Shown here one piece after another: positions 2,997 through 59,182 of a stretch of DNA of 64,000 nucleotides; the first letter of the stretch is position 1; the number at the start of each line of letters is the position of its first letter. The translations under genes and the position numbers were made by a program. The notes beneath the pieces are model-generated. The model did not search any database, had not been told where the DNA came from, and was given only the letters and a program-made list of their open reading frames with translations. This stretch comes from Liolophura sinensis (Eukaryota > Mollusca > Polyplacophora > Chitonida > Chitonidae): contig NC_088297.1 of assembly GCF_032854445.1 (NCBI RefSeq), forward strand, positions 4,213,991 to 4,277,990, written 5' to 3'.

Positions 2997-5900
2997 CTGC
3001 ATGAGTGAGAAGAAAAATCAATAAGTAATATTAATAATAATAATAATAATAATATGTTACATTACAATCCAATAAAGTTATCAGGTTTTAGTGTGTCCAG
3101 TAAAAATAGGTTGCTTACCATCTGCACTGAATTTGAGAAGGAACGAATGGCTACATTGCCACCATCAGGAACAAAACTACATTACAGGTGGACGCACCTG
3201 CAGATGGTTGCTGGTTTTCCCCACGGGCTTTGCCCTGTTTCCTCCTGCCATAATGCTGGCCGCCGTCACATAAGTGAAATATTCTTGAATACGCGTAAAA
3301 AAACAATCAAATAAATAAATAACTGTAAAATAAATAATATAAACTGTACTTTTTGTCAAGCCCTGAAATTGGGCAACCAATGAAGTGTTGTCTCCAAAAT
3401 CAAATCAAAAGGTTTTATTTATTTATTTATTTTGATTGTACGTTTTACGCAGTACTCAAGAATATTTCACTTATACAACGGCGGCCAGCATTATGGTGGG
3501 TTGAAACCGGGCAAAGCCTGGGGGAAACCCACGACCATCCGCAGGTTGCTGCAAGACCTTCCCACTTATGGCCGGAGAGGAAGCCAGCATGAGCTGGACT
3601 TGAACTCACTGCGACTGCATTGGTGAGAGACTCCTGGGTCATTACGCTGCGCTAGCACGCTAACCAACTGAGCCACGGAGGCCCCTCAAATCAAAAGGTG
3701 CATAAATCGCACTGAAAGTCGTTCTTCCATCTGCAAAAAGATTTTGAGGAATTACGGTAGTTGCCATTCACGCTAAGCTTGCCTACAAGTCTGGGGTCCT
3801 ATTATTTTGACACCAGAGACGCCCACAGGAGCACAAAATTAATTTGACAACAGCTACTGACCTTTCTCTGTCGGTGGCATTCTCTGTGGCAAACAAGAAC
3901 GTCCTCATGTTGGGCTCCGGGGGTACTAGTTTGAATGCATGCTTCTTACTGCAGTTAACATCTCTCTCTAGCTGGTAACCATGGAGATGGGCCACGCCTA
4001 CAACGGGAAGTTCATGGAATAACAACTTGACGCAGGTTGCTGGCAGACCTTCCCACGTACCGCAGGAGAGGAAGCCAGCGTAAGCCAGACTTGAACTTAC
4101 AGCGACCGCATTGGTGAGAGGCTCCTGGATAATTGCACCATGCTGGCACGCCAATACCCTTGGCCACGGAGGCCTCGCACTGAACAATTCCAAAACAGAA
4201 TAAATGTATATGTATGCTATGATTTTTACACTGTGCCTTAACAACTGTTCAGTCGTGTGAAGATGAGGCATCTTTAAGTGTGTGTATATAAAATGTGGCA
4301 GGGCAAGTCCACGACCCCAAAGTGCTGATGCCACTAAAGTATCATGTCAAAGACACCAGACATGACACCCAACCTTCACATTATAGAGACACCAGACACG
4401 ACACCCAACCCCTTCACATTATACTTACACCAGGTCAACCAGTCTTGTTTCCTTGCTCTAACCTCTCAGTGCTGAGTGCCAAGGGAGACAACAACATGTA
4501 CTGTTTTTAAAGTCTTTGGTTTGACCCGGCCCGGGTTTGCATATTTGTGGAAGACGAGTGATCTTCAGCGAATGATAGACTGCGCAAACTGTCGTACGAG
4601 GATATAGTTATATGTCAAAGGCTGAAAGCGCATCTCGTGTGCTCTGGCCAACCAGTTCTTGCACTGACTTCGCGGTCCTGAGTGCTAAGCAAAGCAGCAG
4701 CACAATTTTTAAAGTATTTGTATCATTATGTGTAATAATAAAAAAAAAAGACAAAATATGGTGCAGTGCACTCCAAACCTCTCTGGTTTAACAAAGTTCA
4801 ACTGTCCAGTGTTTACTGAAAATGACCAGATGGATGAGTCAATGGCCAGGTCCACTGATGAATGGTCATGGAACATTAAAATTACAGAGGGTTCAACTGT
4901 GTGCCTAGGTTTACGTGTTATGCATGTTTAGTAAATTTTGAAACATTCCTGACTATGGTGTAAAACATCAATCGAATAAACTTTCACATTTTCACAAGCT
5001 TTTCATAAAATGTCACTTCAATAACCCTAATGACCTTGAAAAAATACGTCAAAATCGCTCATAGTCAATTTTGGTTCTGTTTAATGACAAAGTGAAAGTG
5101 AGGCTTAAGTTTGATGAACTTGGGATAAACCGTTCTGGAAACAGTGTTAACACAAGAAAACTGACAAAGGGTTGAAGGGCTGGATGCACGCATGCCAACC
5201 ACTATGAACCAATACTGGACAATATGACTAAGCCAGGCGTATGGGACTCGCCCTGAGCGCTGTAGGAACCTGTCCCCTTGTAGTAGTACATACAGGCATA
5301 AGCCAGGTGTATCGGACTCGCCCTGGGCGCTGTAGGAACCTGTCCCCTTGTAGTAGTACATACAGGCATAAGCCAGGCGTACGGGACTCGCCCTGAGCGC
5401 CGCAGGAACCTGTCCCCTTGTAGCAGTAGATACAGGCATAAGCCAGGCGTATGGGACTCGCCCTGAGCGCTGCAGGAACCTGTCCCCTTGAAGTAGTAGA
5501 TACAGGCATAAGCCAGGCGTACAGGGCTCGCCCTGAGCGCTGCAGGAACCTGTCCCTTTGGAGTAGTAGATACAGGCATAAGTCAGGCGTATGGGACTCG
5601 CCCTGAGCGCTGCAGGAACCTGTCCCCTTGTAGTAGTAGATACAGGCATAAGCCAGGCGTACAGGGCTCGCCCTGAGCGCTGCAGGAACCTGTCCCCTTG
5701 TAGTAGTAGATACAGGCATAAGCCAGGCGTACAGGACTCGCCCTGAGCGCTGCAGGAACCTGTCCCCTTGGAGTAGTAGATACAGGCATAAGACAGGCGC
5801 ACGGGACTCGCCCTGAGCGTTGTAGGAACCTGTCCCCTTGTAGTAGCAGATACAGGCATAAGCCAGGCGTATGGGACTCGCCCTGAGCGCTTCAGGAACC

Positions 5901-8900
5901 TGTCCCCTTGTAGTCGCAGATACAGGCATAAGCCAGGCGTATGGGACTCACCCTGAGCGTTGTAGGAACCTATCCCCTTGTAGTAGTAGATACAGGCATA
6001 AGCCAACCGCACGGGACTCGCCCTGAGCACTGCAGGAACCTGTTCCCTTGTAGTAGTAGATACAGAAATAAGCCAGGTGTACGGGACTCGCCCTGAGCGC
6101 TGCAGGAACCTGTCCCCTTGTAGTAGTAGATACAGGTATAAGCCAGGTGTACGGGATTCGCCCTGAGCGCTGCAGGAACCTGTCCCCTTGTAGTAGTAGA
6201 TACAGGCATAAGCCAGGCGTACGGGACTCGCCCTGAGCGCTACAGGAACCTGTTCCCTTGTAGTAGTAGATACAGGCATAAGCCAGGCGCACGGGACTCG
6301 CCCTGAGCGCTGCAGGAACCTGTCCCCTTGTAGTAGCAGATACAGGCATAAGCCAGGCGTATGGGACTCACCCTGAGCGTTGTAGGAACCTATCCCCTTG
6401 TAGTAGTATATACAGGCATCCTTCAGCACACAATACCGCTTCCTCCATGCTTTTCGAGCCTCGCCCATTTTGCTGAGGTAGCCCGTGCACTCAGGGTTTC
6501 GCAAGGACAGGGCAGGGATTCCCACGTTGTGACTGGTCACATCTAGCCACGTCTCAGTCTGTAAAATAGATCCTGATTAGTCAGTCTGGAGAAACTGGGT
6601 TGAGGTTTACTGAGGTGAGTGGAACTGGTTTCAGCAAAAGGGAATACCCTGGCGTTACCTGGTTATCTGACCATCTTCTTGAAATAAAGTTATCATCCAG
6701 CCCAAGGGAGCAAGTAGCAGGATTTTTCTTTTTTCACAGGTGGTGAAAATTGCATTAAAGAAATTGTCAATTTACACATGAAAGAGGTCAGAGTTATCAG
6801 AGAACGTGCTTTGTCAAGTGCCTAACCAATCTCAGGAACTCACTAAAGAGCTGTGACAAGAACGAGGCTTAACTGACTGGGTGAGTGATGGCCCCACAGA
6901 TATTTGTATTTACTAACTGGATTGTTATTTAATGCCATACTCAAAAAATCTCGGCAAGTTATCGGTGAAGGAGGACACATGTATCTTAAACAAACACTAG
7001 ACAGCATGAACAGTCACAAACTCATCATCCACCGCTTACTGTCACAAAGGCCCCGATAACTGTGATACTGTAATTCTTCAACCTTACTGTCATAAAGGCC
7101 CCGATAACTGTGATACTGTAATTCTTCAACCTTTCCGCATGTTTAGACAGCATGAACAGTCACAAACACATCATCCACCACTTACTGTCATAAAGGCCCC
7201 AATAACTGTGATACTGTAATTCTTCAACCTTACTGTCATAAAGGCCCCGATAACTGTGATACTGTAATTCTTCAACCTTTCCGCATGTTTAGACCGCATC
7301 AACAGTCACAAACACATCATCCACCACTTACTGTCATAAAGGTCCCAATAACTGTGATACTGTAATTCTTCAACCTTACTGTCATAAAGGCCCCGATAAC
7401 TGTGATACTGTAATTCTTCAACCTTACTGTCATAAAGGCCCCGATAACTGTGATACTGTAATTCTTCAACCTTTTTGCATGTTTAGACCGCATCAACAGT
7501 CACAAACTCATCATCAGCCGCTTACTGTCATAAAGGCCCCAATAACTGTGATACTGTAATTCTTCAACCTTTTCGCATGTTTAGACCGCATCAACAGTCA
7601 CAAACTCATCATCCACCGCTTACTGTCATAAAGGCGCCAATAACTGTGATACTGTAATTCTTCAACCTTACTGCCATAAAGGCCCCAGTAACTGTGATAC
7701 TGTAATTCTTCAACCTTACTGTCATAAAGGCCCCAAAAACTGTGATACTGTAATTCTTCAACCTTACTGTCATTAAGGCCCCAATAACTGTGATACTGTA
7801 ATTCTTCAACCTTACTGTCATAAAGGCCCCAAAAACTGTGATACTGTAATTCTTCAACCTTACTGTCATTAAGGCCCCAATAACTGTGATACTGTAATTC
7901 TTCAACCTTACTGTCATAAAGGCCCCAAAAACTGTGATACTGTAATTCTTCAACCTTACTGTCATTAAGGCCCCAATAACTGTGATACTGTAATTCTTCA
8001 ACCTTACTGTCATAAAGGCCCCAAAAACTGTGATACTGTAATTCTTCAACCTTACTGTCATTAAGGCCCCAATAACTGTGATACTGTAATTCTTCAACCT
8101 TACTGTCATAAAGGCCCCAATAACTGTGATACTGTAATTCTTCAACCTTACTGTCATAAAGGCCCCAATAACTGTGATACTGTAATTCTTCAACCTTTCC
8201 GCATGTTTAGACAGCATCAACGGTCACAAACAAATCACACACTGCTTACTCTTATAAAGGCCCTGATAATTGTGATACCGTAATTCTTTAACCTTTTCGC
8301 ATGTTTGCTCAGTTTATTTAAGTATATTCTGAATGCATTATTCTGTGTTCACTGATAAAATTATACTTTTCGTTAAGCCCTGAAACTGACGCATCCAAAA
8401 TCAAATTAAAAGTGTACACAAATTGCACTGACAGTTGTTATTTTGTATGCAAACAGGTTGAGGAATTAAGGTAGGGGAAATCCACACATTCCCTGAACAA
8501 GGACGGTTTTGACCCAGTACCATCTATATGCTGGCAATTAAAAGACGACAGCTTCCGCCAGTACTTCCGCATCTTCCATTTGAGGTACATACATTAAGAC
8601 GACCAAATGTAGCTTCACCTACCTTCATAGTGGAACGTGCAGCAAGCGTCATGGCATTTGCCCACCTGAAAGTAACACAGGATTTCAGGATTATTTTACT
8701 TTATATTTTCTTTGGGCAACACCGATTTTATTTGGCGTTTTTAGGAATGGAATAAAAATAGAACTTAACAATCCACTTCTTTGTCTGTTCTGTTTTACAT
8801 ATTTTTATTATTTTTCCTGATTTTCAAGGCTTTTTTAACAGGATAAAACTGCTGAGACAGTCTACATTTCCAACAATACCCTCTTCAGACAATGGAAAAA

Positions 8901-46000: not shown

Positions 46001-49000
46001 CGCAGTCACAGACACATACAGCTCATTGGAATCAGCTGCTGACAAATGAGTTGTCCCCCCTGAGGACTTCTTGTATGATGGAGGTAAGTAAAACTCAAGT
46101 GGCTTGGTTCCATTGTAGGTCATTATTTTTTTCCGCATTTCAGCAGCAGTTTCTTTCCTGAAAAAAAAAAAAATGAAAAAGATATAACATAACACCACGG
46201 CCTTCACTGATAAAAAAAAAGGATATTTCACAAAGTTAGATATCCCTTTTGTGCTTCAATATTTGGTATTTCACAGCCATGAAGATGTCATTCTGTCAGG
46301 CCAATCAGAAGCTAGAGACCATGTGACCTGCTTAGAAACAAACGACATTATTTCATAGGAAAAGGCCTACTTTTAAATCTCTGTTAGCGATCTTGTATCC
46401 GTTGGATGTGTATAATTTTCAGCTTTCCACGAAGTCTGAGTATTTCCGCAGAGCTTTCATAACGTTACTTTATACAACTAGGCATTACTGGTCGCTAGCG
46501 AAGTGGCAAAAAGTGACCTTTTCCCCAATGCTTTAACACTGGGCGGTCATTTTATTTTAGACACAAAAGGGTGGTCACAAGACCTCCAACTTCTGACCCA
46601 TCTCAGGAAATATGACATTGAAAATCACAACCATTGATCAAGGCACAAGTGACACTAAGAGCCCATCTGTCACATCACATCTGGTAGGTTCTCAATTCCT
46701 CCTTCATAATATATTATTACTATTTACTATGCATTTTTTCTTCTCTCCAATACTGCTCTTTATTTCTAATTAATATCAATAAAAACAATATTTATTTATT
46801 TGATCAGAGTTTTACACCAAACTCAAGAATATTTCGCTTATACAATGGTGGACAGGAAATGGGCAGTGGTTGGGGAAAACCCCATGGTCAATCGAAAGTA
46901 ACAAAATTGACTGTTATTTAATACAGTGGTCAAGATTAGAACAAAACCAGTAAGATTAGAGAATAACTGTCCTATAGTCTTATATAACAAACACCTCTCT
47001 TCATACAGTCTTCATAAATGTATGATGAAGTCTACATTACTAAGGTCACCGCCCCCCCCCCCCCCCCACATAAAACAGATCTGTACTTACATAATCATGT
47101 ACATAGAAGAGTTGTCTACACTTGAAGAAAAGTCTGGATCTGCCAGCAGGGGGCGTTGTGCATAAGCAAATCGGAATGTCTGCCAAAATTAAAAAGGATT
47201 ATTTGTGTGAAACATCAGCAATGCTCGAATTTTAAAAGAAACACGGGTAAAATAATACTGTTTATAATGCAAACATTTAGACAGTCTTGGGATGTCTCGA
47301 TTAAAGTGATCCCTGTTATCAGCTGTCACATGTTTACTCCTGAGATGTTTACCTGTGACATGTTTACCTGTGACATGTTTACCTGTAACATGTTTACCTG
47401 TGACATGTTTACCTGTGACATGTTTATCTGTAAAATGTTTACTTGTGACATGTTCATTTGTAATATGTTTACCTGTGACATGTTTACTAGTCACTTGTTC
47501 AAATTTTATTGTAACTTTGTGCAGATTTAGTTGAAACTATGTGTCAGAACATTTGTCAGCTACAATACCGGGCAATGAGCAGTTGTTTCCTTAAGTTTGT
47601 GCTGCATTTTTTTAGCCCAAAATCTGGTTTACTCATTTATTTGATGGTTGTTTAACACCACACTTACTGTATGATTTCTCACTCATACGATGGAATCAGT
47701 TTTATGGGCGGAGGAAACTGACCTGGGATAAATGCCTGCACTCTGGCCTCTTACTGATGCACTTTCTCACCTGTGAGGTGTAGATGCCCTTTCTCACCTG
47801 TGAGGTGTAGATGCCCTTTCTCACCTGTGAGGTGTAGAAGCACTTTCTCACCTGTGAGGTGTAGATGCACTTTCTCACCTGTGAGGTGTAGATGCCCTTT
47901 CTCACCTGTGAGGTTTAGATGCACTTTCTCACCTATGAGGTGTAGATATTTTGGTGGAAGACAGGTGATTTTTAACAAACGCTAGTTTGAGCAAATGGCC
48001 GTGCATGCACCCTCAGCCACTTAATGTCACCAATGCCCACAAACAGTGAGAGTGCCCAAATCTAGTGATAACTGTTTACATTCCTCACATACCTACCTCA
48101 ATCATCCTGTGGTACATCAGTGAGCTGTTCTTGTCTGCAGCTGTCCAGTTAAAGCCCTCCATGATGTTGAGCATCATCATTAGGGTAGGGCCTCCCCCTG
48201 GGGGCTGGCATGGCCAGAATGCCCTTATCTGAAGGAGACACAGAGAAGGTGCAAGGGTGATACAGATTCCAAAATATTTCTATTTTACAAGCAGTGGTTT
48301 TCAACGAGCCTTATACTGCGCAAATCCCCACACAAGCGTCCTGCATGGATTGCTGTCAGCTGTTGCTGTCAGCTGGACAAACGCTCACAAGAGCGACCTG
48401 CAGGGAATTACCGTCAGCTGGGCAAACGCCCACATGAGTGCCCTGCACGGATTACCGTCAGCTGGGCAAAGGCAAGTGGTTATACTATGGCAGTCCAGTA
48501 ATTCCCGGTCCATGGCCAGGTTTGAGCCCTCACCATATAGCTCCTAGAGAGACAAAGACAAGCCCCTGATTTGACTCACGAAGTTAGATACTTACCCCCA
48601 TATGTAGAATGGACAGCCTTTCTTTCAACTGCCTTGTAATCCTGCAAATCCTGAAGAGTTATGCCCCTTTTGTCTGCGAATTGTAAGAAAAATATTTTAC
48701 TTATTTATTTGATACAGTAAACAAATCAATGGTAGTCATGCTTAAGACTGTCTGAAACTTGTCTGAAATTTAAAATCCATAAAAAATTGTACTGCAGGTG
48801 CGTTGTAATGTTCTCCAATAGATCTGTCATTTGGTCTCCTCTAAATTACCTCCCTTGTCATACGGCAGCAGTTAAAATGTGAATGAGGGATTAGTCCTTT
48901 AGGTGTAAAACTATGAGCTCACCTATCGAAGTATGCAGTATGTAGGTCATAAGACAACAGTAACAAACTATTTTATAGGTAATATAATGTAGAAAAACGT

Positions 49001-52000
49001 AACATTAGTTGAGAGTCAAAGAAATCTTGAGATTTGGGTAGACAGGGTCAACAGTTCAACAGGGTCGCTCAGACTGTGTGTGGTATACAATCATGTACGG
49101 GTAATTCATTAAGAGGTTTCAAAAATTTTCCTCGAATAACGTACAAAAGTATGGGCATACCCTCCAAGTTCACATTCCAATTAGATAATGTAATCAGGCA
49201 TTTTCAATTTCCCATCAAAATTTGCTCTCTTTACATGAAACACATCATGTAAATATCATTATATCAGCAAATTAAATCAGCAATAATTTACTGCTTGTTT
49301 AACCTTACAATTCAAATGACTAAACATTCTGATGTCCTTTCTTTTGTCATTTGGATTCGCTTATTTTGCATACCACAGCGTAATAACCCAGAAGCTTCTC
49401 ACCCTATGCGGTTTGCTGTGAGTTCAAGTCCAGCTCATGCTGGCTTCCTCTCTGGCCGTAAGTGGGAAGGACTGTCAGCAACATGCAGATGGTCGTGGGT
49501 TTCCCCCCAGGCTCTGCCCGGTTTCCTCCCACCATAATACTGTTTGCCAACGTATAAGTGAAAATATTCTTGATTACGGTGTAAAACACCAATCAAATAA
49601 ATAAATAAATTTTGCACACCCATGGAAAAACTATTTCATAATTTAAAGCCTGACCTCAACATTTTTCTGATGATGCTGGGTCATTCAGTAACCTTCCAAT
49701 GACATTAATTTCCCCTAAACTTATAGCACATACAAAAGTTATAATTTAAAATAGAAGATTACAGCTGGGGGAACAATTCTCATAGCAACAATGATAGTTT
49801 GGTAGCTGGCAAATAGTACCATGTAAACTAGTCACACTCACCGCATCAACAATGGAACTGGCAATTTCCCCCTCATAAAATGCCCCGGGTCCATTCTCTG
49901 CATAATGGCCAGTGGTCAGCCAGCTTTGGCTGGACAATCTGGTCCCCAAGCCCAACAAACTGGCCATTGCGGACATAGATGTCTCTAAGTGGACCTTTGA
50001 AATCATCGATAGAGACTTTTGTGAGGGCCAATACTGAAATATAAAACAAAACATTATCAGCAAACACGATGAGCATAAGGTCATTAGAGAATCTTTTTCT
50101 ACGTGTAGTTCTGGGGAAATCTTGAAAAAGCAACAGGATATTTTGAGACCAGGGGCAGCCTATAGTGTGAAGGCCTATCACTCTTCATACAGAGCATTTG
50201 CATGGACAACAGTTGTACTGCTTAATCATTATATATTTTGATATTTATATACCAACGAATCCTAACATAAAATCTCGTTAGTTTTATTTTTTAGACGATT
50301 TCTGCTCGGTTCCTAATCACGAGGATTACATGGATAGTTTTCTTGTAAGATTTTACGTAATCCCCACGTAAATTTGCCAAAGATTTCCGTGTGAAACTTG
50401 AGTTTTAATTAAAAAAGATGAATTTTGGAAAAACAACGATTATCTGCTAATCTAAAACATTTTCAAAGTCTCCATATAAAGCTGGGGCTAAAGTCATCAT
50501 TAAAAAGCTAACAGTAGAAAATAAGAAATTCTAAAAAAAAAAAATCATTTAATACAAGAAAACACATACAGCTGTATGCTTCAAATAAAAGGTACAATTT
50601 GCAATTAAATTACAAATAAAAAAAGATGTGAAATATGACAGAAATATTGAGTTGTTAGCACAAACATACAAGTAATTAACTGATAATCGATGGCAGAAAA
50701 GACAAAAATTGTCATTCAAATAGAAAAAAAAATTGATTATTGTTGGACGCCATACTCATGAAACAAATGAATTCATTTAGTTTATTTGATTGGTGTTTTA
50801 TGCTGTAGTCAAGAATATTTCACTTATACAACGGCAGCTAGCATTATGGTGGGACGAAACCCATGACCATCCACAGGTTGCTGACAGACCATCCCATACT
50901 GGACAGAAAGCAAAACTTCAGCTGGACTTGAACTCACCATTGATCGCATTGGTGAGAGACTTCGGTCACAGCACGGTACTGGTACCTGAACCAAATTGAA
51001 GAAAAAATTGTACTGGTTCTAAAACCATTTTATTTCTCCCTCTAGGAATCATGACTCATGAAAATGTCTCTGTTTCACGTCATGACTGAACAAACAGCAT
51101 TCACTGTATCTTATGTAACCTATTTCTTTTTGTCACGTTGAATCCATTCCGTGCGATCTCAACAGACGGTATCACCAAGTCCTTCCACGGCAACCTGCAA
51201 AACAACACTGCACTGTCAGATTATTTTTGTTATTGAAAATGAAAATAAAACATGAATTCTGGAAGGATAGCTTTACTGTAATCCTTCAACCTTTTTGCAT
51301 GATTGCAAAGTGTTTATTTAAGCATATTCTGAAAGCATTATTTTATGTACACTATTAAAATAATTTATTTATCTGACTGGTGTTTTACACCATACTCAAG
51401 AATATTTCACTTATATAATGGTGGTGAGCATTATCGTGGGAGGAAACCGGGCAGAGCCCACGGGAAATCCACGACCAACCTTACCTGTCATACAACAATC
51501 ATTTACACCTAACCTGTCATACAGACAATCACTACACCTTACCTGTCATGCAGCAATCACTACACCTTACCTGTCATACAGCAATCACTACACCTTACCT
51601 GTCATACAGCAATCACTACACCTTACCTATCATACAGCAATCACTACACCTTACCTGTCATACAGCAATCACTACACCTTACCTGTCATACAGCAATCAT
51701 TACACCTTACCTGTCATACAGCAATCAGTACACCTAGCCTGTCATACAGACAATCACTACACCTTACCTGTCATACAGCAATCACTACACCTTACCTGTC
51801 ATACAGCAATCACTACACCTTACCTGTCATACAGCAATCACTACACCTTACCTGTCATACAGCAATCACTACACCTAGCCTGTCATACAGCAATCACTAC
51901 ACCTTACCTGTCATACAGCAATCACTACACCTAGCCTGTCATACAGACAATCACTACACCTAACCTGTCATACAGCAATCAATACACCCTAACTGTCATA

Positions 52001-55000
52001 CAGCAATCACTACACCTAACCTGTCATACAGCAATCACTACACCTTACCTGTCATACAACAATCACTACACCTTACCTGTCATACAGACAATCACTACAC
52101 CTTACCTGTCATACAGCAATCACTACACCTTACTTGTCATACAGACAATCACTACACTAGCCTGTCATACAGCAATCACTACACCTTACCTGTCATACAA
52201 CAATCACTACACCTTACCTGTCATACAGACAATCACCGCACCTAACCTGTCATACAGCAATCACTACAACTTACTTGTCATACAGCAATCACTACACCTT
52301 GCCTGTCATACAGCAATCACTACACCTTACCTGTCATACAGCAATCAGTACACCTAGCCTGTCATACAGCAATCACTACACCTTACCTGTCATACAGCAA
52401 TCACTACACCTTACCTGTCATAAAGCAATCACTACACCTTACCTGTCATACAGCAATCACTACACCTTACCTGTCATACAGCAATCACTACACCTTGCCT
52501 GTCATACAGACAATCACTACACCTAACCTGTCATACAGCAATCAGTACACCTTACCTGTCATACAGACAATCACTACACCTTACCTGTCATACAGCAATC
52601 ACTACACCTTACCTGTCATACAACAATCACTACACCTAACCTGTCATACAGCAATCACTACACCTTACCTGTCATACAGCAATCACTACACCTTGCCTGT
52701 CATACAGACAATCACTACACCTTACCTGTCATACACCAATCACTACACCAAGCCTGTCATACAGACAATCACTACACCTTACCTGTCATACAGCAATCAC
52801 TACACCTTACCTGTCATACAGCAATCACTACACCTTACCTGTCATACAGCAATCACTACACCTTACCTGTCATACAGCAATCACTACACCTTGCCTGTCA
52901 TACAGACAATCACTACACCTAACCTGTCATACAGCAATCACTAAACCTTGCCTGTCATACAGCAATCACTACACCTAGCCTGTCATACAGCAATCACTAC
53001 ACCTTATCTGTCATACAGCAATCACTACACCTTACCTGTCATACAGCAATCAGTACACCTAGCCTGTCATACAGCAATCACTACACCTAGCCTGTCATAC
53101 AGCAATCACTACACCTTATCTGTCATACAGCAATCACTACACCTTACCTGTCATACAGACAATCATTACACCTTGCCTGTCATACAGACAATCACTACAC
53201 CTAACCTGTCATACAGCAATCACTACACCTTACCTGTCATACAACAATCACTACACCTAGCCTGTCATACAGACAATCACTACACCTTATCTGTCATACA
53301 GCAATCACTGCACCTTACCTGTCATACAACAATCACTACACCTTACCTGTCATACAGACAATCACTGCACCTTACCTGTCATACAGCAATCACTACACCT
53401 TACCTGTCAAACAGCAATCAGTACACCTAGCCTGTCATACAGACAATCACTACACCTTACCTGTCATACAGCAATCACTACACCTTACCTGTCATACAGC
53501 AATCACTACACCTAACCTGTCATACAGCAATCACTACACCTTACCTGTCATACAGCAATCACTACACCTTGCCTGTCATACAGACAATCACTACACCTAA
53601 CCTGTCATACAGCAATCACTACACCTTACCTGTCATACAACAATCACTACACCTAACCTGTCATACAGACAATCACTACACCTTATCTGTCATACAGCCA
53701 TCACTACACATTACCTGTCATACAGACAATCACTGCACCTGTATACCTGATGTACAATAATCAGTACACATTACCCATCATACAGCAATCACTGCACCTT
53801 TATACCTGATGTACAACAATCAGTACACCTTACTTGTCATCCAGCAAATTACTGCACCTTTATACCTGATGTACAACAATCAGTACACCTTACTTGTCAT
53901 CCAGCAAATTACTGCACCTTTATACCTGATGTACAAAAATCAGTACATCTTACTTGTCATCCAGCAAATTACTGCACCTGTATACCTGATGTACAAAAAT
54001 CAGTACACCTTACTTGTCATCCAGCAAATTACTGCACCTTTATACCTGATGCACAAAAATCAGTATATCTTACTTGTCATCCAGCAAATTACTGCACCTT
54101 TATACCTGATGTACAAAAATCAGTACACCTTACTTGTCATCCAGCAAATCACTACACCTTTATACCTGATGTACAAAAATCAGTACACCAATACCTGCCA
54201 TACACCAATCAGTACACATTACCTGCCATACAGATTGTGCGCCATCTCCATGCCTCTTAACTGACCGGGGACACCCACTGACCGAGGACCCTGGGAACAG
54301 AGAAAGTAAAACACATACACGTACAAATATAAGAGTCCTTCATGTTCACCTGAAACACACAGACCCTGAGCTCTTTAGTGTCTCGTGGTAATATTGTGTA
54401 GCCTCATGGCATGGATCTCCCTGTTTACCTCCCTTTTTGTGTCTACTGCCACATGTCAACTACCAGAGGGAGCTGTGTATATTGTGTGCACAACCAAACC
54501 AGTGATGCAAAAAGGATAACAGAAATTCTGCCTTCTCATTGGCTAATGGACCACAAGCCTAAGAAAAATGTAGATTCAGAATATGGCTACACAAATAATC
54601 TAGAGGTATATCTTGTTTTTCTATCTTTGAATTTTGTAGCTTCTCAACAAAAAAAATCACAAAAAATCAAAACTTACTCCTATGTGGACATTCACAATGG
54701 ACTTTCATTTTCACTGTAATCAACTGAATGCTTTTCTTTTTTTTTAACTAAGCTGAGTGTGTTAAGTGAGAAAAACCTGATGTGACAACTACTTTACCGT
54801 AATATAGTCAGAAAATGTCACTGAAAACTTCGACATTTCAAAATGGTTCTTTTGTTGAGAAGTTTTTCCATAGAACGAACCTTTCTGCTGCCGTCTTTGT
54901 CATCTTTGAACATGTCAGGATAGGCGGAGCTCGGGGCGGTCTCTCGGAAGTCAATTGCTCGGGTTAGGTGAGTATTTGTTTTGTGATCGTAGATTAACAT

Positions 55001-58000: not shown

Positions 58001-59182
58001 CTGGGTAATATCCTGGGCCCATGCTTCTGAAAAGTAGGCAGTTTTCACCCAGGTACAAATGACCTAGAGACATGACCCGGTGTAAAGTCAGAACTATCAT
58101 GATTATAAAACACAGATATTGCCTGAAAGACTTGGCCCTACAGGTATTTTCTGTTAAGGTACAGGTATGTTCTGCTAAGGTACAGGTATGTTCTGTTAAG
58201 GTACAGGTATGTTTTGTTAAGGTACAGGTACGTTCTGTTAAGATACAGGTATGTTTTGTTAAGGTACAGGTATGTTTTGTTATGGTACAGGTATGTTGTT
58301 TTGGTAAGGTACCGTTATGTTCTGTTAAGGTACAGGTATGTTTTGATAACGTACAGGTATATTGTTTTGTTAAGGTACAGGTATGTTTGTGCAGGTACAG
58401 GTATGTTTTGCTAAGGTACAGGTATGTTCTGTTAAGGTACAGGTATATTCTGTTAAGGTACAGGTATATTGTTTTGTTAAGGTACAGGTATGTTCTGTTA
58501 AGATACAGGTATGTTTTGATACGGTACAGGTATATTGTTTTGTTAAGGTACAGGTATATTGTTTTGTTAAGGTACAGGTATATTGTTTTGTTAAGGTACA
58601 GGTATGTTCTGTTAAGGTACAGGTATGTTTTGATAAGGTACAGGTATGTTGTCTTGTTAAGGTACAGGTATGTTCTGTTAAGATACAGGTATGTTTTATT
58701 AAGGTATCGTACAAAGTTACCTGATGCCTGATTACAGGCCTATGACATAGTCTTATTGTATGTGGAATAATCAGGTAATAGCTTTACTATGTCTAATTTG
58801 AGTTGAGTCATATTAATTAATACTACCACAGCCTTACATAGCCTAGGACTACGTGGGACCTGGAACTCCCTGGTTGGACCTAAATGTATAGACTAATTAA
58901 TTAACATATTCAAATATATGTTACTTGTGTCATTAATACTATATAAATAGTGATAACTAATACGTTATTTCCAGTCTACACAAACTGGCACATTAAGTCT
59001 TCTTCATGAAGGTTTGTTGTCACATTCCCACCTCCAACTAGGTGTGACATTTACTTCATATTTTGACGTTGTGCGATTTACAACAACAACAATATAATAT
59101 TAAAACTGATACGGCGACCGCGACATATTGAAAATATCAGTTATCTACCAGACAATGGGTGGTCCATCTCTGCGGTTGTCAT
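42864..59182 (-). CDS. Gamma-glutamyltransferase (glutathione hydrolase)-like membrane protein, 16 exons, about 612 aa, with frame breaks
   Basis: Exons in transcript order: 59182-59149, 57519-57426, 56783-56678, 55863-55712, 55010-54881, 54290-54223, 51194-51120, 50033-49842, 48673-48596, 48228-48097, 47179-47091, 46157-46002, 45054-44934, 44541-44415, 43927-43817, 43036-42864. All boundaries are GT-AG. The order is a cytoplasmic tail of about 45 residues, one membrane helix (about 48-76), then the GGT fold: GGVAADVPQCSQLG, GGSAVDAAIASLFC, DFRETAP (Arg equivalent to human GGT1 R107), SVGVPGQLRG, QPKLAD, and the small-subunit start SSGGTTHLSAAD with the nucleophile Thr at about residue 419. 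GGTs cleave gamma-glutamyl bonds of extracellular glutathione and mature by self-cleavage before this Thr. Exons 1-6 and 10-16 join in phase; exons 7-9 do not, so the gene is either damaged or misassembled there. Several active-site positions differ from GGT1. It may be a divergent invertebrate paralogue. Confidence 0.87.
43211..43337 (-). mobile_element. SINE family 1, 3' half
   Basis: The tail TTTATTTATTTATTTGATTG and GTTTTACGCCATACTCTAGA are clear; the central block is deleted. It lies in intron 15 of the GGT-like gene. Confidence 0.75.
43455..43770 (-). mobile_element. SINE family 3, nearly full length
   Basis: On the minus strand the head reads GACCACTTCGGTTGCCTAAT and GGTTAGAAGGTCTGCCTC, with a B-box-like GAGATCAAACCTC. 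It lies in intron 15 of the GGT-like gene, in the sense direction. Confidence 0.82.
43817..43927 (-). CDS. GGT-like gene, exon 15
   Basis: It encodes GVAETLVNLLSFGMTLEEAI and SRPRVHDQL, corresponding to the GGT segment in which a helix is followed by the conserved PRxHxQL motif. Acceptor CATTCTCAG, donor GAAG|GTAAGT. Confidence 0.9.
44151..44373 (+). mobile_element. SINE family 1, diverged, nearly full length
   Basis: It has a tRNA-like start (TCGTGGCCAAGTTGTCAGCA), TGTTAGTTCAAGTTCAGCTC, and the tail AACGCCCATCAAAATAAAT. An internal deletion removes much of the centre. It lies in intron 14 of the GGT-like gene. Confidence 0.7.
44415..44541 (-). CDS. GGT-like gene, exon 14
   Basis: It encodes GKRPLSAMTPTVV and LRMAVGASNGTRIISG. 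PLSAM corresponds to the PLSSM oxyanion motif (human S451, S452), with the second Ser changed to Ala; ASNGT corresponds to AAGGT (human G473, G474), with the first Gly changed to Asn. Confidence 0.9.
44637..44816 (+). mobile_element. SINE family 1, 5'-truncated, with long poly-A
   Basis: It begins TCAGCTCATGCTGGCTTCCT and ends in about 30 A. A pure poly-A tail instead of the TAAA repeat is unlike the other copies and fits a younger insertion. It lies in intron 13 of the GGT-like gene. Confidence 0.82.
44934..45054 (-). CDS. GGT-like gene, exon 13
   Basis: It encodes STNYWFGARLMTSTGIQLNN followed by HMDDFDTP. This is the STINxxFGS...GIxLNNEMDDFS region. The Asn (human N401) and the last Asp of MDDF (human D423) are kept; the Glu before MDDF (human E420) is His here. 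The donor ACC|GTAAGA is followed within 20 nt by a run of 14 G on the sense strand. Confidence 0.9.
45186..45411 (+). mobile_element. SINE family 1, nearly full length
   Basis: It runs from GCACACTAGTGCAACATAAT to the CAGATAAATATATAAATAAA tail, with a short deletion in the central block. It lies in intron 12 of the GGT-like gene. Confidence 0.82.
45802..45930 (-). mobile_element. SINE family 1, diverged 3' half
   Basis: The tail TTATTTATTTATTTGTTCG and GATTATGGTGAAAGGAAACTG are recognisable. It lies in intron 12 of the GGT-like gene. Confidence 0.65.
46002..46157 (-). CDS. GGT-like gene, exon 12 (catalytic Thr)
   Basis: It encodes the end of the large subunit and the start of the small subunit: SSGGTTHLSAADSNELYVSV. 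The first Thr of TTHLS is the conserved autocleavage and catalytic nucleophile of the family (human T381). A stretch of 13 T followed by CAG is the acceptor; the donor is TGC|GTAAGT. Confidence 0.92.
46789..46893 (-). mobile_element. SINE family 1, diverged 3' fragment
   Basis: Recognised from TATTTATTTGATCAGAG and ACACCAAACTCAAGAATATT. It lies in intron 11 of the GGT-like gene. Confidence 0.6.
47091..47179 (-). CDS. GGT-like gene, exon 11
   Basis: It encodes TFRFAYAQRPLLADPDFSSS, matching the FKFAYAxRxxLGDPDF motif of GGTs. Acceptor TTTTGGCAG, donor ATTAT|GTAAGT. A run of 16 C (47052-47067) lies just inside the next intron, as a G-run on the sense strand. Confidence 0.9.
47325..47497. repeat. 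15-bp minisatellite, about 11 copies, with sense-strand donor motif
   Basis: The plus-strand unit GTTTACCTGTGACAT gives, on the GGT-like sense strand, ATGTCACAG|GTAAAC. It lies in intron 10, near exon 11. Confidence 0.92.
47633..47727 (-). mobile_element. SINE family 1, diverged tail fragment
   Basis: TCATTTATTTGATGGTTGTT and TTTATGGGCGGAGGAAACTG are weak matches to the reversed 3' half. It lies in intron 10 of the GGT-like gene. Confidence 0.45.
47757..47950. repeat. 27-bp minisatellite, about 7 copies, with sense-strand donor motif
   Basis: The plus-strand unit CACCTGTGAGGTGTAGATGC plus CCTTTCT gives, on the sense strand, CTCACAG|GTGAGAAAG. It lies in intron 10 of the GGT-like gene. Confidence 0.93.
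48097..48228 (-). CDS. GGT-like gene, exon 10
   Basis: It encodes FWPCQPPGGGPTLMMMLNIM and EGFNWT, corresponding to the PPPPSGGxxLxxxLNILEGYN motif of the large subunit. Acceptor TCCTTCAG, donor TTGAG|GTAGGT. It starts in phase 0, but exon 9 as assembled ends in phase 1. Confidence 0.87.
48596..48673 (-). CDS. GGT-like gene, exon 9, out of phase with both neighbours
   Basis: It encodes GITLQDLQDYKAVERKAV, the GGIxTLEDLxxY motif. Acceptor ATTCGCAG and donor GGGG|GTAAGT are good. The reading frame that gives this motif needs phase 1 at both ends, whereas exon 8 ends and exon 10 begins in phase 0. Each mismatch sits at a homopolymer (AAAAGGGG at the start, GGGGG at the end), which suggests single-base length errors or real small indels. 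Confidence 0.8.
49372..49608 (+). mobile_element. SINE family 1, 5'-truncated, with near-perfect target duplication
   Basis: ATTTTGCATACC before the element and ATTTTGCACACC after the TAAATAAATAAA tail form a 12-bp duplication with one mismatch. It lies in intron 8 of the GGT-like gene. Confidence 0.85.
49842..50033 (-). CDS. GGT-like gene, exon 8, with an internal frame break
   Basis: The first part encodes LALTKVSIDDFKGPLRDIYV and QPKLAD; the second, in another frame, encodes YAENGPGAFYEGEIASSIVD. The break lies between LAD and YAENG, near 49910-49925, where two nucleotides are missing relative to the usual spacing of the family. Acceptor TTTCAG ends at 50034; donor TGCG|GTGAGT at 49842/49841. 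Confidence 0.82.
50776..50984 (-). mobile_element. SINE family 1, internally deleted
   Basis: TTTATTTGATTGGTGTTTTA and GCTAGCATTATGGTGGGACG identify it; the central block is missing. It lies in intron 7 of the GGT-like gene. Confidence 0.75.
51120..51194 (-). CDS. GGT-like gene, exon 7
   Basis: It encodes LPWKDLVIPSVEIARNGFNV, the LPWxxLxxPxIxLAxxGF motif. Acceptor GTTTTGCAG ends at 51195. The frame at its 3' end (after a run of five A near 51127-51131, plus-strand T) does not match exon 8; one base fewer in that run would restore it. Confidence 0.82.
51286..51361. mobile_element. MITE left part cut by a SINE
   Basis: TGTAATCCTTCAACCTTTTTGC and TATTCTGAAAGCATTATTTT match the left half of the MITE family. 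The right half is absent: the sequence passes into a SINE tail and then into the 28-bp array. Confidence 0.7.
51361..51479 (-). mobile_element. SINE family 1, 3' half bordering the minisatellite
   Basis: The tail (TTTATTTATCTGACTGGTG) runs to GAAATCCACGACC, where the match stops and the 28-bp array begins. Confidence 0.75.
51480..53745 (-). repeat. 28-bp minisatellite, about 80 copies, each carrying a 5' splice site
   Basis: The plus-strand unit is CCTGTCATACAGCAATCACT plus ACACCTTA; a 29-bp variant has CAGACAATC. On the GGT-like sense strand each unit reads CTGTATGACAG|GTAAGGTG, a near-perfect donor. The 11 nt before the bar correspond to the end of GGT-like exon 6 (CTGTATGGCAG), and the following 17 nt to the start of its intron. 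Confidence 0.96.
53746..54222 (-). repeat. 60-bp higher-order repeat, about 8 copies, between the 28-bp array and exon 6
   Basis: The unit combines CAGTACACCTTACTTGTCAT, CCAGCAAATTACTGCACC and TTTATACCTGATGTACAA. It looks like a fused, diverged pair of the 28-bp unit. On the sense strand it has CATCAG|GTATAAAG and GACAA|GTAAGG. It reaches to the exon 6 donor. Confidence 0.9.
54223..54290 (-). CDS. GGT-like gene, exon 6
   Basis: It encodes GPRSVGVPGQLRGMEMAHNL and YGR, the SVGVPGxxxGxxxAHxxYG motif of GGTs. Acceptor CTGTTCCCAG; donor GGCAG|GTAATG at 54223/54222. Its final 11 nt are the seed of the 28-bp array in the following intron. Confidence 0.9.
54881..55010 (-). CDS. GGT-like gene, exon 5
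   Basis: It encodes GGGFMLIYDHKTNTHLTRAI and DFRETAPSSAYPDMF. GGGFxxxxD and the Arg of DFRETAP (substrate carboxylate binding, human R107) are hallmarks of the family. Acceptor CATTTTCAG, donor AAAG|GTTCGT. Confidence 0.92.
55107..55336 (-). mobile_element. SINE family 1, nearly full length
   Basis: It runs from TATTTATTTATTTGATTGGTG to a head remnant (GCGCTGGCGTGCTAACC), with a short deletion in the centre. It lies in intron 4 of the GGT-like gene. Confidence 0.8.
55712..55863 (-). CDS. GGT-like gene, exon 4
   Basis: It encodes VGEYGGVAADVPQCSQLGVD, GGSAVDAAIASLFCVSVINA and HNSGIGG, the most conserved N-terminal block of GGTs. Donor GAGG|GTGAGT (55712/55711); acceptor TGATCAG. Confidence 0.92.
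55900..56600. other. Intron 3 of the GGT-like gene: repeat fragments
   Basis: A diverged fragment of the possible family 4 SINE lies at about 56010-56210 (TTTATGGGTGCGTTAAAACG). The rest is AT-rich with no feature seen. Confidence 0.45.
56678..56783 (-). CDS. GGT-like gene, exon 3: signal-anchor membrane helix
   Basis: It encodes RPTGGLAILISATLVFSLAV followed by TVALIIQIYAGPY. The uninterrupted run of about 27 non-polar residues, preceded by Arg and not followed by a cleavage motif, is a type II signal anchor placing the catalytic domain outside the cell. Acceptor CTTACAG, donor CTTAT|GTAAGT. Confidence 0.88.
57223..57372 (-). mobile_element. SINE family 1, 3' half
   Basis: TATTTATTTGATTGGTCTTT and TGGTGGGAGGAAACCGGGCA; truncated on the head side about 54 bp before GGT-like exon 2. 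Confidence 0.75.
57426..57519 (-). CDS. GGT-like gene, exon 2: cytoplasmic tail
   Basis: It encodes an acidic then glycine-rich tail (DDQQLVADGVHSPDAGQDEG, SHGLGAGFGKKG). It is in phase with exons 1 and 3. Acceptor TCTGCTCAG, donor AAAGG|GTAAGA. No family motif; accepted on phase and position. Confidence 0.75.
57540..58135. other. Part of GGT-like intron 1 without recognised element
   Basis: Only short ORFs are present and I see no repeat. The minisatellite of the intron begins just after it. Confidence 0.45.
58140..58712. repeat. About 21-bp minisatellite, about 25 copies
   Basis: The unit GGTACAGGTATGTTCTGTTAA varies between TATGTTCTG, TATGTTTTG and TATATTGTTTTG forms. It contains the donor-like CAG|GTATGT, but on the plus strand, antisense to the host gene. 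It lies in intron 1 of the GGT-like gene and does not touch an exon. Confidence 0.93.
59149..59182 (-). CDS. GGT-like gene, exon 1 with start codon
   Basis: The ATG at 59182-59180 begins MTTAEMDHPLS and ends at donor TCTG|GTAGAT. Joined to exon 2 it gives an uninterrupted frame into the membrane anchor. A second in-frame Met is six codons in. The short exon was found from phase only, so the start is less certain than the rest. Confidence 0.65.

Follow-up and report, generated by a model that had tools for sequence, protein, structure and literature searches.

Minisatellites that span a splice junction are known from amphioxus as 'mirages', in Adh3 and globin genes (PMC3087553) and in TnC and PGBD5 (PMC3902484), and the former report states that reverse transcription PCR (RT-PCR) suggested regular splicing to be undisturbed by them (PMC3087553). 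In human IFI6 (6-16) a minisatellite has been reported to supply multiple splice donors (Turri et al. 1995, cited in PMC4526556), and intron gain has been described to occur via tandem genomic duplication of AGGT segments (PMC3443670). In this study, we examined a 64-kb stretch of the genome of the chiton Liolophura sinensis (contig NC_088297.1, positions 4,213,991 to 4,277,990, hereafter the window), in which intron 6 of a gamma-glutamyltransferase-like (GGT-like) gene consists mostly of a tandem repeat whose unit straddles the end of the preceding exon. This array is probably a splice-junction minisatellite of the amphioxus mirage type that arose through slippage or unequal exchange, most likely without useful function.

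A junction-spanning array and its host gene

Our search space was the L. sinensis assembly (609,464,459 bases in 632 sequences), and coordinates are those of the window unless a contig or locus is named. Tandem Repeats Finder (TRF), cyclic alignment and alignment to human GGT1 delimit the following features:

54223..54290, minus strand: GGT-like exon 6 (GPRSVGVPGQLRGMEMAHNLYG-R), from translation, Pfam and human GGT1 alignment; the final 11 nt belong to the repeat unit as its exonic portion
54214..54222, minus strand: authentic 5' splice site region (GTAATG...), first nine intronic bases, placed by homology; score 7.3, duplex -8.6 kcal/mol
51478..54233, minus strand: junction-spanning array of 97 units, ~28 bp per unit, from TRF and cyclic alignment
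53726..54205, minus strand: diverged exon-proximal part of the array, units 1-16, identity to consensus 0.75-0.89
51478..53725, minus strand: homogenised distal part, units 17-96, with units 17-95 at 0.89-1.0 identity to consensus
51195..54222, minus strand: the array-bearing intron, 3028 nt, GT...AG, ends placed by homology
51112..51194, minus strand: exon 7 (R-LPWKDLVIPSVEIARNGFNV...), from human GGT1 alignment; 3' end uncertain

TRF placed the array at 51478-54233 with a period of 28 and 96.6 copies, and cyclic alignment resolved it into 97 contiguous units of ~28 bp, the first of which (unit 0) starts inside exon 6 and is the true junction, while the last is partial. The initial annotation of this DNA had counted about 80 copies, a figure that fits only the 81 copies matching a unit 21-mer with two mismatches or fewer. 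Its description of the unit as the last 11 nt of exon 6 followed by the first 17 nt of the intron is upheld, and its estimate that some 90% of the intron is tandem repeat agrees well with the measured share of ~2745 of 3028 nt (~91%). Placed by homology to human GGT1 and not by RNA, the last base of exon 6 lies at +54223 (in the sense direction CTGTATGGCAG/GTAATG) and the first base of exon 7 at +51194. The two exons thus placed join in frame (...AHNLYG-R-LPWKDL...) and align without gaps to ...AHQRHG-R-LPWARL... of human GGT1.

Within the array, units 1-16 come in two alternating forms that make up a roughly 60-bp higher-order unit across most of them. CAGGTAAGG is present in 41 of the 79 units 17-95, and the distal edge is undiverged except for partial unit 96. 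Variation within units 17-95 clusters at donor positions +2 (18/79) and +3 (22/79), from which we draw no claim of selection, because homogenisation spreads few variants. A fragment at 51373-51478, which we take to be SINE-like (resembling a short interspersed nuclear element) and of a kind occurring elsewhere in the window, adjoins the distal end of the array.

An array of such size is far beyond chance, and its unit is private to this intron. Searching the whole assembly with the unit 21-mer at up to two mismatches returned 84 matches, 81 of them inside this intron and three as singletons elsewhere, against one for the reversed control; by the same search there is no second array of the 28-bp unit in the 609-Mb assembly. 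A dispersed satellite inserted in the intron was accordingly rejected as a source.

The host gene lies on the minus strand at about window 57530-43815, with 14 exons recognised by eye, and its joined upstream exons through exon 7 match Pfam PF01019 with E=2.6e-47. Apparent reading-frame changes fall inside two exons (50034-49850 and 48228-48098, minus strand), and no exon 7 donor in phase with exon 8 was found at this gene. The frame breaks may mean that the gene is decaying or may be indels in a 14x assembly; the argument about the array is independent of that question. One other intron of the gene holds two arrays (47323-47487 and 47756-47947, minus strand) that carry the sense donor motifs CAGGTAAAC and CAGGTGAGA but whose units lack a recognised exon end. 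A 21-bp x 26 array with CAGGTATGT at 58139-58706 lies on the plus strand, opposite to the GGT gene, with no exon recognised at its start.

Donor copies and junction arrays at other exon ends

Donor scores in this study derive from a human weight matrix, and duplex energies from a human-type U1 5' end. The initial annotation took every unit to be a sense-strand donor, which proved too generous: only 73 of the 96 downstream units keep GT in register, 23 have lost it, and 42 carry CAGGTAAGG (a CAG/GTAAGG donor). It also held the real donor to be a poorer match to U1 than its copies, which is true with respect to CAGGTAAGG; by donor score, 62 of the 96 downstream units surpass the real donor. The commonest copy scores 11.4 against 7.3 for the real donor; the U1 duplex has an energy of -12.0 kcal/mol with CAGGTAAGG and of -8.6 with the real donor CAGGTAATG, with 8/9 and 7/9 positions matching the U1 consensus. 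The first two copies are weak in-register donors (CAGGTATTG, 4.4; CAGGTATAA, 4.2). Translation past the real donor yields R and then TAA immediately, so that use of an internal copy would truncate the protein, as had been proposed. Polyadenylation words in the intron comprise two AATAAA (intron positions 2854 and 2905), both beyond the array, and no ATTAAA is present within its 3028 nt.

Recurrence of such arrays at other exon ends was observed directly. A PF01019 search of the assembly gave 32 matches, which were grouped into five GGT-family genes, and each of the other four has one array across an exon end and its donor:

C10:1212144-1214432 (in L042): GGT donor array, 86 bp x 26.7; the unit includes the exon end coding GTAHLSVMAANG...STINL and the donor
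C12: GGT donor array, 47 bp x 2
C1:37M: GGT donor array, 86 bp x 2
C1:89M: GGT donor array, 42 bp x 37.5, at a GC donor

The exon end in the C10 unit encodes the catalytic-threonine motif. Among 41 GGT exons there are five donor-side arrays and no acceptor-side array, where crude random placement leads one to expect 0.92 of each. At C10, C12 and C1:89M, intron position and phase (read from exon ends and phases) are common to two paralogues that have no array there, which makes these arrays younger than their introns. The relation of the real donor to its copies is not uniform: at C1:89M the real GC donor (5.8) is weaker than GT copies such as GAGGTAGGC (7.7), at C10 the picture is mixed (real donor 7.1, copies 6.2 and 10.4), and at C12, C1:37M and the myosin locus L064 real donor and copies are equal in strength.

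Of 81 myosin-head matches found, 52 were inspected (30 loci plus 22 matches in 20 regions). They include two donor-side arrays that belong to a single gene, L064 (66 bp) and L096 (about 31 bp), as well as one acceptor-side array (L078, 1-260), whose units of about 31 bp carry TTTGTAG/GTTTGAGCG and end at the exon start. The real donor of L096 (12.5) is stronger than its copies (GTCAGT, GTCACT and the like). Two loci were left uncounted: the array of L056 lies inside the intron, ~38 nt from its start, and that of L082 stops before the acceptor. L084b, a myosin match interrupted by in-frame stops, was counted as a miss, and L001-L008 were not counted, having been chosen for a donor motif and hence being biased. 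One more array, spotted via array flanks, also stands outside the count:

5229..6419, minus strand: donor array at a PH-domain exon end, 70 bp x 17; last exonic base 6372, ...GSYNAQG/GTGAGT

Its 17 units have GT in two cases (one being the true junction) and GC in 15, and the real donor (10.0) is stronger than its copies (GC units 3.4).

Taken together, the 93 GGT and myosin exon matches contain eight junction arrays, seven donor-side and one acceptor-side; leaving out the window gene, the count is 7/79. Against an expectation of 2.5 from random placement, which is crude and uses exon ends assigned manually on the basis of homology and donor motifs, the seven donor-side arrays are in excess (P=0.014), as are the six that remain once the window GGT array, from which the search started, is dropped (P=0.042), while the single acceptor-side array is not below chance (2.5 expected, P=0.29). 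Comparing donor with acceptor arrays directly gives P=0.07 for 7 vs 1 and P=0.125 for 6 vs 1. Genome-wide, the donor word CAGGTAAG occurs in 756 triples at 6-36 nt spacing versus 184 in the reversed control, and as 30137 versus 14611 singles, which amounts to a twofold excess of triples per single. The acceptor-like word TTTTCAGG shows no such excess (triples 179 versus 83, singles 40785 versus 19003), and for CAGGTGAG the triples number 1095 versus 179 in the reversed control, a raw figure unscaled by singles. All of these triple counts are clumped, with several per array, and the repeat counts are lower bounds, so they are suggestive only. That the counts stem from few arrays is evident on contig C1, where by eye there are at least about 18 CAGGTAAG arrays (to 93.4 Mb) against four TTTTCAGG arrays; a general donor enrichment over all arrays of the window and the paralogues, relative to reversed units, was unconvincing by eye. 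Another large donor-bearing array lies at C1:505639-510478, where 46 CAGGTAAG matches occur on one strand within 4.8 kb, many of them ~49 bp apart.

It is conceivable, if doubtful, that in this chiton genome 5' splice sites act as hot spots for the birth or retention of minisatellites, with perhaps thousands of donor arrays by extrapolation from two gene families. Were this true, the bias could be explained by a cause linked to transcription or splicing, for example R-loops at donors, or alternatively by donor copies being tolerated and acceptor copies not.

Origin of the array and alternative explanations

According to the explanation we favour, a stretch of 28 bp, made up of the exon 6 end and the adjoining first bases of the intron, would have been duplicated, and the duplicate would have expanded to about 97 copies through replication slippage or unequal exchange. 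The distal part would have become homogenised, with older diverged copies retained beside the exon, and the spliceosome would use the 5'-most donor, the sole one joined to the exon proper, leaving the copies as passive intron. We infer the duplication mechanism, first-donor use and neutrality alike. Growth from the exon-intron junction, already suspected in the initial annotation, is well supported: the array is contiguous with the exon, the exonic part of its founder codes for residues that align to GGT1, the unit is private, and analogous arrays stand at other exon ends. The divergence gradient fits as well, in that the exon-proximal edge escapes homogenisation, as reported for amphioxus globin mirages (PMC3087553). 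Further, the strength of real donors relative to copies has no consistent direction, which points to drifting copies rather than a tuned U1 decoy. Junction-spanning arrays in the chiton genome are thus probably a recurrent, tolerated form of repeat expansion rather than a specialised device.

Some observations weigh against this explanation. The commonest copy is a better match to U1 than the real donor, so that in unaided competition internal copies would be expected to win over the first donor, whose use is a prediction. The variation at +2 and +3 (18 and 22 of 79 units) could reflect selection against copies as well as drift, and the excess of donor arrays, with or without the window array, may mean that something favours donors.

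Intron gain and function were both weighed as alternatives. That the array is the remnant of an intron gain, in which an exonic segment holding a proto-splice site was tandemly duplicated, seems unlikely, even though the exon is uninterrupted here in all three comparable paralogues (the stretch was not found in the fourth, C1:37M) and tandem duplication is a documented route (PMC3443670) that has been proposed for mirages too (PMC3087553). The acceptor resembles the unit at 8/11 and 11/21 positions, and others among 30 acceptors compared reach 8/11 and 12/21; an acceptor derived from the duplicated unit was therefore rejected. In addition, three other arrays occupy introns shared with paralogues, and several intron positions differ between the window gene and its paralogues, so the private intron may have another history. 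A functional donor array, with many U1 sites acting as decoys, slowing or regulating the splicing of exon 6, or blocking premature polyadenylation, is in our judgement distinctly improbable. The 42 of 96 copies that carry CAGGTAAGG, with their closer U1 match, speak for it, as does the finding that in GGT genes the five array-bearing donors are weaker than 31 other donors (P=0.009), a hand-picked comparison set from which one window donor was dropped and exon 7 donors and a few terminal-exon donors were omitted. This weak-donor signature of a U1 decoy vanished (P=0.20), and was rejected, on adding the donors of both myosin arrays together with 17 other myosin donors chosen by hand (7 vs 48), the latter drawn only from the 22-match set and none from the 30 loci. 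Moreover, the real donor is stronger than its copies in L096 and the PH-domain gene, GT is lost in 23/96 copies, both AATAAA of the intron sit past the array, the host gene has apparent frame breaks, and the arrays are not common to paralogues. The specific roles put forward earlier (U1 decoy, splice switch, telescripting) consequently find no support, given that real-versus-copy strength varies among arrays and AATAAA occurs only past this one.

Two further alternatives concern the copies nearest the exon and the assembly. Some of the first copies might serve as real alternative donors, as in human IFI6; the copies do retain donor motifs, and the IFI6 precedent (cited in PMC4526556) shows that such use occurs, but any extension would read R-stop at once and give truncated products, and the first two copies are weak, making this very improbable. 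An assembly artefact can be set aside almost entirely: HiFi coverage is low at 14x (PMC11068029) and the gene has apparent frame breaks, whereas the 97 units carry many point variants and a divergence gradient, and like arrays stand at several other loci.

Relation to known splice-junction repeats

In the literature we found, splice-junction minisatellites were previously known from a handful of amphioxus genes and one human gene. Our search, of limited depth, found no splice-junction arrays in molluscs, a cone-snail gene-intron paper (PMC3862624) being left unassessed, and for earthworm metallothionein (PMC12783039) the available part of the report places the repeats inside an intron and does not state whether they span a junction. 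Eight junction arrays among 93 exon matches suggest a common, fast route of intron growth and donor-motif multiplication. With dozens of donors per intron, such arrays are natural experiments on how the spliceosome chooses the correct donor, and with them the proposed conversion of mirages into new introns can be tested by comparing chiton genomes.

The introns attributed to AGGT duplication share with the chiton intron a duplicated segment with a proto-splice site; they differ in that the chiton acceptor shows no recognisable derivation from the unit and in that the chiton intron holds a large array, not a single duplication. IFI6, whose unit is reportedly 12 bp, likewise has a minisatellite at an exon end with units carrying splice donors. 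Its downstream units are used as donors, however, whereas use of internal donors in the chiton gene would, from its reading frame, be expected to truncate the protein.

The likeness to amphioxus mirages goes further. As there, the tandem units span an exon-intron boundary, many though not all copies keep splice signals (73/96 with GT), copies at the boundary escape homogenisation (0.75-0.89 versus 0.89-1.0 identity), and both donor-side and acceptor-side arrays occur. The differences lie in the host, a mollusc; in copy number, 97 units in one intron compared with 3 and 6 in two BflGb6 globin haplotypes; in unit length, 28 bp here (about 31-86 bp in the other chiton arrays) compared with 10-72 bp in Adh3 and 150-160 bp in globins; and in the evidence, splicing having been examined by RT-PCR in amphioxus and the chiton array being known from genome sequence. 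The chiton array is probably a mirage of the amphioxus kind in a mollusc, high in copy number and of a type that seems to be common in this genome.

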